From: an uncultured Caldilineaceae bacterium
GTDB lineage: Bacteria > Chloroflexota > Anaerolineae > Caldilineales > Caldilineaceae
DNA length: 64,000 nt
Assembly: GCA_951812725.1 (NCBI GenBank)
Contig: OX638330.1
Location: 3,699,405-3,763,404 of the forward strand
Direction: 5' to 3'
Part shown: positions 3,986 through 47,347 of the stretch, piece by piece
How the letters are laid out: each line of letters begins with the position of its first letter
How positions within the stretch are numbered: position 1 is the stretch's first letter
The notes under the pieces: generated by a model
Told to the model about the DNA's origin: nothing
Seen by the model: the letters and a program-made list of their open reading frames with translations, nothing else
The model's database searches: none
Position numbers and translations under genes: made by a program

Positions 3986-4260
3986 AGTAACAGCTCAGCC
4001 ATTTATTTTGGCTGGGCCGTCATCGTTGGCGCCGTTCAGGCTAGTGGTGATGCAACTGGCCAGGAGCGGCTATCTTGTTCTACATCCGCATTGCTGCAAT
4101 GAAAGCGTACTGGCGGTAAGGCGTCGTTTGGGAGGGGGCGTTGCGGGGGCGTCCCCCTGCACAAGAGAGGGCCGAAGGCCCGACCGCCCAAAAGAGAGCA
4201 GTGAGTGAAGAGGAGTGAGAAGAGAAGAACGCAGCTATTCGCCTCAGACAGGGTCGCGAG
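3986..4260 (+). repeat. Interspersed structured repeat, copy 1
   Basis: 275 bp between the convergent ends of glcF and the aminotransferase-like gene. It matches copies at 18587, 29156 and 46981 over its length, most clearly at the 5' end (GTAACNGCTCAGCCA), at TTCAGGCT, in the core, and at the 3' end (TCGCCT...CAGGGTCGCGA). The core has hairpin 1 at 4143-4160 (arms GCGGGGG and CCCCCTGC, with one G-T pair) and hairpin 2 at 4169-4181 (GGGCC-GAA-GGCCC). A GGGCG at about 4136-4140 can pair with CGCCC at 4185-4189 to enclose both. No open reading frame is conserved among the copies. Confidence 0.85.
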
Positions 4261-4561
4261 ATGGCGATGGTGGGGTAGTTACGATTTGAGAAGGCAAGAA
4301 CCAGCGTCAACTCGATTGCGGCAAGCGGAATTCTTAACCGGACAGCAACCCCTTTTTGCAAACCGTTTAACCCGCAGGGCCTAACATAATAGTCGAAGCA
4401 GCCAACCTCCTACTTCAGGGCAGGGATGGCAATCCGGCTTTGACGCAGGGCATCTCCTCAGGACCTTCCCGGCTACGCCAGGATAAGTGTGGCCGGGGCC
4501 CGAAGGTGTGGGCCGTTCGGGGGGATGGATTACACCTTCTCCCATTATTTGATCGGCCTTC
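4261..4561. other. Non-coding gap between convergent genes
   Basis: About 300 bases between repeat copy 1 and the end of the minus-strand aminotransferase-like gene. I see no credible gene, promoter or clear terminator hairpin here. The G-rich stretch at about 4490-4525 has no run of T after it. Confidence 0.4.
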
Positions 4562-18586: not shown

Positions 18587-18863
18587 GTAACTACTGAGCC
18601 ACAGTACTCGACCGGCTAGTCACCTTTGGGACCATTCAGGCTCTTGGTGACGGAACTGGTGTACTGTCGCCGCACTGCTGGCCAGCCGACCCGCAGCGAT
18701 GAAGGCAGACGGTAGGTGAGGCATGGTTTTGGAGGGGGGCGTTGCGGGGGCGCAGCCCCTGCACAAGGGAGGCCGCTTGCGGCCGACCGCCCATAGACTT
18801 GAATAGAGTAGAGAGAAGCGAGGAACGAGTAAACACCTTCGACCGCCTTGCTCCAGGTCGCGA
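18587..18863 (+). repeat. Interspersed structured repeat, copy 2
   Basis: 277 bp between the PhyH gene and the convergent regulator gene. Same ends as the other copies (GGGTAACTACTGAGCCA; CAGGTCGCGA). Core hairpin 1 at 18744-18762 has arms GCGGGGGC and GCCCCTGC around GCA. Hairpin 2 at 18771-18784 is GGCCGCTTGCGGCC, a different sequence from copies 1 and 3 but still fully paired. GGGCG before the core can pair with CGCCC at the end of GACCGCCC (18785-18792). Confidence 0.87.
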
Positions 18864-19056
18864 TTGCCGAGCGTTGAAGAAATGCTCGCGGTCACGGGAT
18901 ACCGCCGATTTTTGGGGTGCGAATCGACCGTGTCAGAGTAGATATGACGTGCATGAGTTGGTAATCAGACATGTTTGTCCTGGCCGCGAGGAACTGTAGG
19001 CGGGTGGCTCCGTTGCGCAAATTCGCAATTGCACTTTGCTTGAACCTGGCACTTTA

Positions 19057-19137
19057 TGCAGACCACTCAATACAATTGAGAGGTCTGCATTGAGGGCAAC
19101 GGGCATCTGCCAGGCTCCATTTCGCTCGGAGCCTGGC
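19057..19137. other. Two consecutive strong hairpins in an intergenic region
   Basis: The first pairs TGCAGACCACTCAAT (19057-19071) with 19075-19089 over 15 positions with a single mismatch and a 3-base loop. The second pairs GCCAGGCTCC (19109-19118) perfectly with 19128-19137 around a 9-base loop. No T run follows either on the plus or minus strand. They lie about 190 bases after repeat copy 2 and 105 bases beyond the end of the regulator gene. They could be a structured RNA or the convergent terminator zone; the rest of 18864-19241 holds nothing else I can name. Confidence 0.7.
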
Positions 19138-19241: not shown

Positions 19242-20198
19242 TTAAGACCTTTCAAGCAGGCCTCCGCCTCGTACGCCGAAATCCCTGCGCAAATCACTCG
19301 AGCAATTGCACGTATGCATGGCATGGAGTGTAGGATTCGGCCAAGGCGTCAATGCGAGAGGACGGTTGCCCTTATCCGCCAAGTTCTGGAATACGGCGCC
19401 TGTGTCGCGATTCTGGGGCACGAAGGTGGCCAGGTAGAGGTCGCCACAGGCACTCAGGCTTATGTTGGTGAAGACGGTGTAGGCTACCGGCCCATAGACG
19501 CTATGGGTGTAGAAATGGCTGCGCAGGCGGCTGTTATCGTCTTCAACGCGTCTGCGGCTAGCCGCCCAAAGCATTTGGAAGTCTGGATAGGCTGATAGGG
19601 TGGAGAAAAGGTCGCGAAAGTGGGTGGTATGGCGATATCGCAGGGTCATGACCCGCCACTGACGCATGTTGGCGAGTGCGATGGCCTGCCACCCGGGACC
19701 CAGCACGCTTCGAATTGGTGCATCCGGGGCCAGTAACAGTGAGAGAATATTGACGTTACCGGCGGAACTTCTTGCCGCATTGAACTGTGACCAGTTGAGC
19801 CTGTGAAAGTCGAGGACGGCGCGGTTTGCGCCGACCAAGTCACCAAACGAGTCCATGAGGAAAGCCGGTGTACAGATTGTGCCCAGCGTTGCCCAGACTC
19901 GGGAAAAGACTTCCTGGTGTTTGAGGTCGGCACGCACGATTGCATCGTCTGTGATCTCGCTGGCCATGGCGAAAAATTCGCGGCGTTCCAGCGAAGTAAG
20001 TCTGAAGGCTCTCGCCAGCTCCTGAAGCGTAGCCCTGTCAAGCCGCACCTGGCTGCCTCGTTCAATTTTGCCTACGATTCTTGTGGTTAGTCCCGTCTCC
20101 TCTGCCAGTTTCTCCTGGCTCCAGCTGTTGCCGTTATCGAAGTCCAACTGCTCCTTGCGCAGTGCGGCAACGACTTTCCCAAACATTTTGCGTTCCAC
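19242..20198 (-). CDS. XRE-family regulator with MmyB-like ligand-binding domain
   Basis: 318 residues. An N-terminal helix-turn-helix (about 5-65; SQEKLAEETGLTTRIVGKIERG) is followed by a domain with AFLMDSFGDLVGANRA and LSAYPDFQMLW, resembling the PAS-like MmyB domain (PF17765) common in XRE regulators of actinobacteria and Chloroflexota. The GTG start has GGAGG five bases upstream. An inverted repeat 18 bases before the start may be its own operator. The target is unknown; the divergent lipoprotein pair is the nearest candidate. Confidence 0.83.
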   Translation of the reverse strand: MERKMFGKVVAALRKEQLDFDNGNSWSQEKLAEETGLTTRIVGKIERGSQVRLDRATLQELARAFRLTSLERREFFAMASEITDDAIVRADLKHQEVFSRVWATLGTICTPAFLMDSFGDLVGANRAVLDFHRLNWSQFNAARSSAGNVNILSLLLAPDAPIRSVLGPGWQAIALANMRQWRVMTLRYRHTTHFRDLFSTLSAYPDFQMLWAASRRRVEDDNSRLRSHFYTHSVYGPVAYTVFTNISLSACGDLYLATFVPQNRDTGAVFQNLADKGNRPLALTPWPNPTLHAMHTCNCSSDLRRDFGVRGGGLLERS

Positions 20199-20246: not shown

Positions 20247-20866
20247 TCCCTCTACCTAAGATTATATCACTCTGGATACCAACTAAAAGTGAGCATTCTC
20301 CCAAATCTGAAAGTCTGGTCTCCCGATATTGGTACCTATGAGTATGACAGGCGCTAGCGAAGAGAGTTACTCTATATTGTGGAAGGCTACAACAGTTCCT
20401 GTTCCGCACCGCACGAGAGTCATGGGGGACGCAGGCAACAGATATTCTGCACGAAACAGATCGCGAAATAGTGCTCGCGAATATGGGCCGAGGGATTCGA
20501 GCTTTTGTTAAAGCGGGTGGGTGTCTTCGTCATAAACACGGCAAACCAGAAGGGCCCTAGTGGCCTCGAAGGGAAATCATAATCCAAAGTGCCATTGCCT
20601 GCGTGAGAATTGAATTTCGTTTAGCGGCAGAAGGGCACGCGGCACACGCATAGAGTAACTGGAAAGCGAGGGCCGGGATAAGAGCTGCTGTCGCGACCGG
20701 GTTGCCTGCCAAGTCTTGCCGCTAACGGGTGACAAAGAGTAATCGTGCAGTGCGAGGAAACTTCAGGTTGCTATCGCCTGACCTCAAGGCCCCTCTAATT
20801 GAAACGAAGAGCGGCGTGGATTGTCGGAATGCAGACGCTGCTTCAGATGTGCAAGGAGGCAGGACA

Positions 20867-21580
20867 ATGTTCAAGACGTTTCTGGTTGTCGGACTGGCAC
20901 TTCTCGCTGTGGGCTGTGTCCCAATCCAGCTGGTGCCTCCAGAAGCTGGCACCGAACAAGAAGCATCTGAAGATTTGATCCAGCACCTCGAAAGCTGTGA
21001 TCCGAATTTTTCGATCCTTAAGGTTGGTAACAGCGCATACGATATACCGTCCAACAATGTGCCAGATTACATTGACATTCTCAGTGTGGAATCCAGCCTG
21101 GACGGGGAGATCCTTACGGTCGTGATCTATCTGAAGAGCATTCCCCAAGAATTGGCAACAGATAGGGAAAGTCACTCTGACTCGGCCAAAGATACGGGCA
21201 AGGAGGAAGATCCTTATGTTTACTATTGGAACGTCAATATCGACGTAGACGGCGCCGCCAGAAGCCCAAATGACCTTTCACTTTTCGACTACATGTTCAG
21301 TTCGGGCGTTTCCCTGGGATCACTTAGCTCGGAAAAACTACCCACAGCTATCGACTTCGAAGACGCGGTGAGTTTCGACTTCTTTGAATTCGAGCACCTG
21401 GTTGACCGAGAGCAGCTTCCTCACTTGCACCATGCAGGACCCGCCCAACTAAATGTTTCCTACAAGGACAATTCCCTCACTTTCAGGAGTAAGGTTCCGG
21501 GGATAACGAACAATTCAACCCTTTTCTTTTATGCTGGCGATGACTTGCGCCGACACGACGGGATTTCATGCGAAACATAG
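20867..21580 (+). CDS. Putative lipoprotein, paralogue A
   Basis: 237 residues from the ATG after AAGGAGGCAGGACA. Signal peptide MFKTFLVVGLALLAVGC with lipidated Cys17, so anchored on the outer face of the membrane. No known domain recognised. The middle contains PDYIDILSVESSLDGE and VVIYLKSIPQELATDRE, and the end NNSTLFFYAGDD with HDGISC. These segments recur in the next gene, so the two are tandem duplicates. The frame is open for 46 codons further upstream, but without a start context as good. Confidence 0.72.
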   Translation: MFKTFLVVGLALLAVGCVPIQLVPPEAGTEQEASEDLIQHLESCDPNFSILKVGNSAYDIPSNNVPDYIDILSVESSLDGEILTVVIYLKSIPQELATDRESHSDSAKDTGKEEDPYVYYWNVNIDVDGAARSPNDLSLFDYMFSSGVSLGSLSSEKLPTAIDFEDAVSFDFFEFEHLVDREQLPHLHHAGPAQLNVSYKDNSLTFRSKVPGITNNSTLFFYAGDDLRRHDGISCET

Positions 21581-21699
21581 CCGATACTTCGGCCTGGAGG
21601 GCACTTTGTGCCAGTCCTGCTTTCAAGCCGACGATGCGGAACAGAAGTGGACGAAGTTTGGAACCAGAGTTCGCCTTCATCTGCCAAGGAGACAAGCTC

Positions 21700-22371
21700 A
21701 TGTTCAAAATCGCTATTGTCGTTGGACTCGCACTTCTCATTGCGGCCTGCGTACCTATACCAGAAGAGCCACAGGCGGCGTCATTACCACCGCAGGCGGC
21801 AGCGCAACGCGCTGACTGTCCCGGCGGCTACCTAGACATGTTGCCCGGCCAGAGTGCCAGCGACCCGATGCTAAGTTCGTTGCCAGGTTACATTGATATT
21901 GTTGGCGTGGATTCCAGCCTAGAGGGCGACACTCTGACGGCCATATTTTATCTGAGGGAGATTCCGGAAGAGTTGGCATTCGACAGAGAGGATGTCGAAG
22001 ACATGAACCTGGAATATATGTGGACTGTTTCAATCAACATTGAGGGCAATTCATTAGCTTCATTCGATCATACCGATTACTCTTTGGCCGCTTTTCATGC
22101 CGCAAGAAGGGAATCGGCAGATACGCCCGCCATTCTCCGCCCATTCAAAGATGAGGTGGAGATTATGGTTTGGAAACACAAGCACTTTCCCGATAAGAGC
22201 GAAACGCAGCTGTTAGAGGTGCCGGTCAATCCGCGCTTGATCGTTTCTCAGGAAGACAACATGCTTACTCTAATCGGCCGGATTAAGGGTATCAATAACG
22301 AGTCGACCATTTCGTTTTCGACTTTCGATATCTTGCTCGGACATGATGGTGTCTCGTGCCGGCCCAGTTGA
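21700..22371 (+). CDS. Putative lipoprotein, paralogue B
   Basis: 223 residues from the ATG after CCAAGGAGACAAGCTC. Signal peptide MFKIAIVVGLALLIAAC with lipidated Cys17. It shares with paralogue A the signal sequence, PGYIDIVGVDSSLEGDTLTA, FYLREIPEELAFDRE and the C-terminal NESTISFSTFD with GHDGVSC. By eye the two are clearly homologous but well diverged. Function unknown; a secreted sensor or substrate-binding role would only be a guess. Confidence 0.72.
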   Translation: MFKIAIVVGLALLIAACVPIPEEPQAASLPPQAAAQRADCPGGYLDMLPGQSASDPMLSSLPGYIDIVGVDSSLEGDTLTAIFYLREIPEELAFDREDVEDMNLEYMWTVSINIEGNSLASFDHTDYSLAAFHAARRESADTPAILRPFKDEVEIMVWKHKHFPDKSETQLLEVPVNPRLIVSQEDNMLTLIGRIKGINNESTISFSTFDILLGHDGVSCRPS

Positions 22372-29155: not shown

Positions 29156-29434
29156 GTAACTGCTCAGCCACATACGGTGTTTGTATTGACTGCCTTTTAT
29201 TTTCGTCTCAGTTCAGGCTGTCTGATGACGCATCCTGTTGGCGGCTGCCAGGTTGGTTGAGCCGCACTGCTGGCTTGAAGGCGTAGCGGTGGGTGAGGCA
29301 TGTTTTTGGAGGGGGGCGTTGCGGGGGCGCAGCCCCTGCACAAGGGAGGGCCGAAGGCCCGACCGCCATAATACAAGAAGATAGTATGGAGAAGGTAGAA
29401 GAGAGGCACCTGCGCTCGCCTGACTCAGGGGCGC
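29156..29434 (+). repeat. Interspersed structured repeat, copy 3
   Basis: 279 bp in the 628-base gap between the divergent ANKH-like and GH13 genes. Ends GTAACTGCTCAGCCA and TCGCCTGACTCAGGGGCGCG match the other copies. Hairpin 1 at 29321-29339 (GCGGGGGC-GCA-GCCCCTGC) and hairpin 2 at 29348-29360 (GGGCC-GAA-GGCCC) form the core. The outer closing pairs are one shorter here (GACCGCCA). Upstream of the core it shares TTGGCGGCTGCCAG and GCACTGCTGGC with copy 4 at two-to-three-base differences. The rest of the gap, 28981-29155 and 29435-29608, holds nothing I can name. Confidence 0.88.
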
Positions 29435-29608
29435 GAAATGACTTACGCGGGGTAGCAGAGGCAGGCTCGTGTGAAGCGATCAGGGAAGGGGCATTAGAGA
29501 CGGGGCGGTGCATTGACAACCGCTTGTGGCTGTGCAAGAATCAGACATATTGCGATGGGCAAGGGAATCCCTCACTTCGGCCTCCTCACTATTGGCAGTG
29601 GTAACTCA

Positions 29609-46980: not shown

Positions 46981-47257
46981 TTATACTAATCCGCATACAG
47001 TGTGTGTCTTGACAAACTCTACATCTTAGCCGCCATGCGGGCTCTGTGAAGGTGTATTCGGTTGGCAGCCGCCAGACTGGTTGGGGGGCACTGTTGGCAT
47101 GCCACGATGGTGGGAAAGAACCAGCAACGTGGATAGCCAGGGCGGGGCGTTGCGGGGGCGCAGCCCCTGCACAAGGGAGGGCGCTTGCGCCCGACCGCCC
47201 ATAATAAAACAATGAGGGGAGAGAGTGCACCTTTGCTTGCCTCGTTCAGGGTTGCGA
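46981..47257 (+). repeat. Interspersed structured repeat, copy 4
   Basis: 277 bp between two plus-strand genes. The left end is the most diverged, but GCATACAGTGTGTGTCTTGA aligns with copy 3 (CATACGGTGTTTGTATTGA), and TTGGCAGCCGCCAG with TTGGCGGCTGCCAG. Hairpin 1 at 47152-47170 is identical to copies 2 and 3. Hairpin 2 at 47179-47192 is GGGCGCTTGCGCCC, a third fully paired version. GGGCGG before the core can pair with CCGCCC at 47195-47200. The gap on either side, 46914-46980 and 47258-47347, holds nothing else I can name. Confidence 0.85.
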
Positions 47258-47347
47258 ATCAGTTGCGGCTGAGAAGTTGCGTAGGCTGCAAAAAATAGTT
47301 CAGATGTCTCACTGTTGAACCTGCATATTGTCCAAAGGAGGAGGAGT

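Follow-up and report, generated by a model that had tools for sequence, protein, structure and literature searches.

An IS66-type MITE of a Caldilineaceae genome, with hairpin alleles apparently exchanged whole between copies and a core oriented with respect to replication

The window, i.e. the whole stretch of 64,000 nucleotides analysed here (C1:3699405-3763404), belongs to the genome of an uncultured Caldilineaceae bacterium, assembled as a single contig of 5.95 Mb (completeness 98.2%, contamination 6.5%). It contains four copies of an element of 285-300 bp, present in about 430 copies in the chromosome, and putatively non-coding and of variable length. Features of the window are listed in Table 1. 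Each element carries a conserved core with two hairpins; in copy 2, the second hairpin is directly followed by GACCGCCC, up to position 18792. This copy has an ortholog at the same site in a related genome (MPML locus L092, 93.7% identity over 8 kb). Between it and an open reading frame (ORF) resembling a helix-turn-helix regulator lies a 23-nt inverted repeat, and further on, two tandem, related ORFs for small lipoprotein-like proteins share about 70% nucleotide identity in two blocks (20852/21685 and 21060/21881), an apparent local gene duplication.

Table 1. Features of the window (positions counted from its first nucleotide).
Feature	Position	Strand	Description	Basis
MITE copy 1	3987..4282	+	full length, both TIRs, decayed 8-bp duplication; hairpin 1 GGGGG-CGT-CCCCC	
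Hairpin 2, copy 1	4169-4181		allele A, GGGCCGAAGGCCC	
MITE copy 2	18587..18895	+	left end GTAACTACTGAGCC at 18587; right end decayed, approximate	TIR pattern
Conserved core, copy 2	18734..18792	+	GGGGGG-CG...CGCCC closing stem, hairpins 1 and 2, linker CAAGGGA	column identity
Hairpin 1, copy 2	18743..18763	+	TGCGGGGGC-GCA-GCCCCTGCA	read directly; formed in RNA and DNA folding predictions
Hairpin 2, copy 2	18771..18784	+	allele B, GGCCGCTTGCGGCC	read directly
Inverted repeat	19049-19097		23 nt, 83% complementary, 3-nt loop	
Helix-turn-helix regulator-like ORF	19242-20198	-		
Two lipoprotein-like ORFs	20729-22371		tandem	
MITE copy 3	29156..29450	+	left TIR GTAACTGCTCAGCC at 29156; right end decayed, approximate	
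Hairpin 2, copy 3	29348-29360		allele A, GGGCCGAAGGCCC	
MITE copy 4	47000..47281	+	approximate ends	
Hairpin 2, copy 4	47179-47192		allele C, GGGCGCTTGCGCCC	

The repeat core is present far above chance: its 21-nt motif GGGCGCAGCCCCTGCACAAGG has 431 matches in the genome with at most two mismatches, against 0 for a reversed-pattern control, and shuffled versions of the window gave 0 matches to 24-nt core motifs. Elements were surveyed in the window and in 139 further stretches, each of 20 kb, which together make up 2.84 Mb of the genome. In this sample, cores are flanked by TIRs (GTAACTACTMAGCC ... GGCTKAGTAGTTAC), and among 104 TIR pairs, mostly spanning 277-315 bp, 52 are bordered by exact 8-bp target duplications. 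When elements of 270-320 bp were defined by their TIRs only, 87 out of 90 contained the core. An empty site was also found, where TCATATCT is single (L222), the same sequence being duplicated around a MITE elsewhere in the genome (L104). Finally, a 1569-bp IS has the TIRs of the MITE (GTAACTACTMAGCC), and three sampled copies of it encode a protein of 496 amino acids with the domains DDE_Tnp_IS66 (PF03050, E 4e-40) and zf-IS66 (PF13005, E 2.6e-10). Given the shared TIRs, the 8-bp duplications, the empty site and the IS66 transposase partner, the repeat is therefore a non-autonomous, IS66-type MITE. Judging from the common ends, it would be mobilised in trans by the IS66-family transposase. Like other MITEs derived from the IS66 family, it has GTAA...TTAC-type TIRs, an 8-bp duplication, a size of about 290 bp and, in its own genome, a full-length IS whose ends match. 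It differs from them by a core that is missing from the autonomous IS and is better conserved than the ends, and by an orientation that follows the replichore in 97-98% of cases. In one of the IS66-like transposases (L187:13431-14999), the sequence QQFIPF at residue 194 resembles the beta-clamp binding motif Qxx[LMI]xF.

Five sampled elements, of up to 520 bp, have two cores, and one MITE of 1131 bp (L112, genome positions 213291-214422) has five, placed about 208 bp apart with CTGCAGTGGTCAGTGGTCAGTG heptamer arrays in between, which indicates that cores also expand in tandem. The core pattern is limited to relatives of the same genus (12 of the 41 genomes searched, all in one of 25 genera). 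Exact core matches in named genomes were to the Caldilineaceae bacterium MAGs MPML01 ('bin5', hereafter MPML) and OY282376.1. Caldilineaceae MAGs of this kind are associated with sponges, and a literature search found nothing on repeats of sponge Caldilineaceae.

Over 87 full-length elements, column identity reaches 0.965 for the core, 0.93 and 0.92 for the two TIRs, and 0.77-0.80 along most of the remaining sequence. In 12 ortholog pairs with MPML, differences were counted at 5 of 420 core positions, 138 of 2140 body positions of the MITE, and 328 of 4554 positions outside; core and body differ in rate (p about 1e-6), the core rate being biased low, perhaps twofold, because loci of MPML were retrieved through 25 nt of the core that had to match exactly. 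Both purifying selection and gene conversion are possible causes of this conservation. In folding predictions, the core of about 58 nt forms two stable hairpins, with a third stem closing them. As RNA, both alleles that were folded came out at a predicted -36.3 kcal/mol, with z-scores of -1.6 to -2.2; as DNA, the predicted energy of the core hairpin is about -18 kcal/mol. A search of Rfam with gathering and relaxed thresholds returned no relevant match to the core, a putatively functional sequence.

The orientation of cores relative to GC skew was scored in 20-kb chunks (187 agree, 29 disagree) and in 130-kb neighbourhoods (161 agree, 16 disagree). All 16 discordant copies of the latter count fall within four segments, at ~0.9, 1.7-1.85, 3.37-3.66 and 5.49-5.54 Mb. 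Outside these mixed segments, which were drawn post hoc and widened (0.85-1.2, 1.65-2.0, 3.37-3.66 and 5.48-5.63 Mb), 144 of 148 copies fit the replichore orientation. With the leading strand defined by positive skew, following the usual convention (dnaA is at 4.85 Mb), about 97% of copies outside the mixed segments have the G-rich strand of the core on the G-rich, leading strand, and hence on the template of lagging-strand synthesis. In a complete relative (G012), 98 of 100 copies among those listed are consistent with a division into two arcs, 2.56 and 2.84 Mb long, as would be the case for replichores. The mixed segments are possibly stretches of replichore that were recently inverted. In the segment at 3.37-3.66 Mb, MITEs on the minus strand mostly keep recognisable TSDs and copies on the plus strand are mostly eroded.

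Outside the mixed segments, orientation was 24:1 for copies with perfect target duplications, 40:2 for imperfect and 80:1 for partial ones. Young copies are thus as polar as eroded ones, and the bias is apparently established upon insertion or shortly afterwards. Gene orientation was rejected as the cause of this polarity, as only about 49% of genes, oriented with a home-made ORF/hexamer gene caller, are co-oriented with the skew (855 with, 897 against). The IS with the same ends was found in a 2:2 ratio in unmixed regions (p = 0.008 relative to the MITE, a contrast based on six IS copies in all, four of them in unmixed regions). Because these few IS66 copies show no bias, the bias appears to be tied to the interior of the MITE. 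However, this polarity is not specific to the hairpin core, since other intergenic arrays are equally polar. In intergenic CCACGAAGGGCCGCGAAG arrays, decamers of the CCACGAAGGGCCGCGAAGAACTGCAAC type are found 116:1 on the leading-strand side as judged by GC skew, at few loci (L184, L152 and L121, at ~3.273-3.278, 1.914 and 0.597 Mb), and represent another repeat, not a transposon, whose polarity strictly follows replication. The GTGGTCAGTGGTCAGTG heptamers, which make up the CTGCAGTGGTCAGTGGTCAGTG arrays of the five-core MITE, are strand-polar 18:0. Polarity may be general for non-coding repeats in this genome.

A replichore polarity of 97-98% is unusual for an IS66-type MITE, even though orientation-biased transposons are known, and a literature search found nothing on MITE orientation relative to replication direction. 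In the review PMC5371812 (citing Gomez et al. 2014), orientation is described as reflecting replication direction for IS200/IS605, for the TnsE pathway of Tn7 and for ISs that bind the clamp. The MITE resembles these elements in that its orientation is tied to replication direction, but its autonomous IS66 partner is unbiased in the few copies at hand, and its bias exceeds, in our judgement, what one would expect of a DDE element. Insertion linked to the replication fork, or very early filtering, would be the most economical account. With the G-rich strand of the core on the lagging-strand template, both predicted hairpins could form there.

Alternatively, the core might be a polar DNA signal selected by the host, of the KOPS, SRS or Chi kind, spread by the MITE and kept polar by removal of wrong-way copies. 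The polarity observed in two chromosomes, a core better conserved than the TIRs and the unrelated polar repeats of the same genome would all suit such a signal, as would the AAGGGAGG linker, which we take to resemble known translocase signals. However, core octamers are no clear outliers among the skewed words found outside the MITE, being skewed like other G-rich words, and the equal polarity of young and old copies (24:1 versus 80:1) favours a bias set at insertion, so that we regard a host-selected signal as unlikely. KOPS and SRS, as described in PMC2680272, are short G-rich motifs whose polarity runs from the origin towards the terminus. The strong replichore polarity of a G-rich sequence is common to both cases, but here the sequence is a structured core of 58 nt, borne by a transposon and not known to be bound by a protein.

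We now turn to the hairpins themselves. The first-pass annotation had described, in the four window copies, a second hairpin whose stem positions switch together, and had taken this as selection on the fold. Direct reading confirmed the four sequences and the paired switches. Hairpin 2 exists as three common alleles, all perfectly paired: A, GGGCC-GAA-GGCCC; B, GGCCG-CTTG-CGGCC; and C, GGGCG-CTTG-CGCCC. Of the roughly 220 copies in the sample of our genome, 148 have A, 48 have B and 17 have C, plus about 10 rare variants; the corresponding A/B/C counts are 27/19/4 in MPML and 8/3/0 in OY282376. Hairpin 1, supposed to be almost invariant, also has versions with paired changes, namely GGGGGC-GCA-GCCCC, GGGGGG-TGT-CCCCCC, GGGGGG-GCA-CCCCCC and the one of window copy 1, and GGGGC-GGA-GCCCC is found as well. 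The adjacent GGGA, supposed to be fixed, reads GAGA in window copy 1, and the suggestion that the two hairpins bind different partners found no support.

The covariation is real. Across 37 different haplotypes of the core, 96.4% of cells are paired as in the structure; two-sided changes occupy 13 cells, against a mean of 3.4 in shuffles, none of 500 reaching 13, and the covariation score is 0.089 against 0.039, with all slid versions scoring far lower, these cells being inherited alleles and not events. Yet it comes without stepwise compensation. The three alleles differ en bloc and are reshuffled among elements: pairs of copies at least 95% identical outside the core (over the remaining ~200 bp) have the same allele in 41% of cases, against a random expectation of 49%. 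Between MPML and our genome, the hairpin-2 allele differs in 2-3 of the 12 ortholog pairs. One pair has A versus B (L077 and L113) though 111/115 and 64/64 bases are identical around the core, and another also has A versus B (L063 and L185), with 110/115 identical bases upstream; MPML is a draft MAG with contig breaks at cores, and misassembly is possible for these two pairs. The unlinking within our genome holds nevertheless, because it is independent of the MPML assembly. The alleles recur in related species and are unlinked to element lineage.

Within alleles, stem substitutions (13/2912) are as frequent as those at linker and 5' outer sites (17/4640, p = 0.58), which is the pattern that the first-pass annotation had itself named as speaking against its reading. 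In addition, no compensated stem change was found within any hairpin-2 allele among our copies typed by allele. Selection on the stem fold is therefore not supported, and of the original interpretation, paired covariation stands but fold selection acting through compensation does not. Copies would rather trade entire hairpin alleles, through short-tract gene conversion or recombination across the identical core. Such exchanges could give the appearance of compensatory changes, and would help to keep the core uniform. We infer this process from the unlinking of alleles, the A/B differences between orthologs and the equal within-allele rates devoid of compensation, rather than from an exchange event observed directly. 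A bolder and less probable reading would have hairpins maintained as exchangeable cassettes through gene conversion.

If the core were transcribed, for instance in 5' UTRs, and functional as RNA, paired changes could be truly compensatory. GCUUGC and C(GAA)G are known as stable loops, and this adds to the equal predicted energies of the two alleles tested and to the covariation above shuffles. Moreover, genes downstream are co-oriented with the core more often than the background (110:47 versus 330:296, p = 1e-4), which would fit a transcriptional role. Nevertheless, stems and linkers mutate equally and no hairpin-2 allele contains a compensated stem change; orientation tracks replication, not genes; and the fold has no Rfam match and z-scores that are just -1.6 to -2.2. 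Selection on an RNA fold is improbable in our opinion.

Template switching is a documented origin of compensatory changes that affect several bases of an RNA stem at once (PMC8794818). One arm of a DNA hairpin, corrected from the other during replication, would yield such a change in a single event, without selection, and both the stable DNA hairpin predicted here and the en bloc differences are in line with this mechanism. It does not explain why the loop, GAA or CTTG, is replaced together with the stem; furthermore, the same three alleles recur in three species, and among the few broken stems seen, none was re-paired. We therefore hold it to be quite improbable as the source of the alleles.

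Lastly, a REP/REPIN-like element moved by a Y1 transposase (TnpA-REP, or RAYT), evoked by the short hairpins in hundreds of intergenic copies and by the replication-linked orientation known for ssDNA transposons (PMC5371812), can be dismissed for this genome, barring a Y1 gene in sequence that the assembly lacks, since a Y1_Tnp (PF01797) profile search found nothing here but gave matches in five control genomes, and since TIRs and 8-bp duplications denote a DDE element, moved as a TIR/TSD unit.

Taken as a whole, our reading of an IS66-type MITE of Caldilineaceae, whose hairpin alleles are swapped whole between copies and whose core is oriented by replication, has in our estimation a probability of roughly 0.6. 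Covariation is normally taken as a strong sign of a selected RNA fold, but a shuffled set of paired alleles mimics this signal, which calls for caution when covariation tests are run on repeats. The polarity of the MITE, unlike that of the few IS copies, offers a testable case for replication direction setting, or filtering, the orientation of a transposon, and the orientation of the MITE could serve to mark recent replichore inversions.
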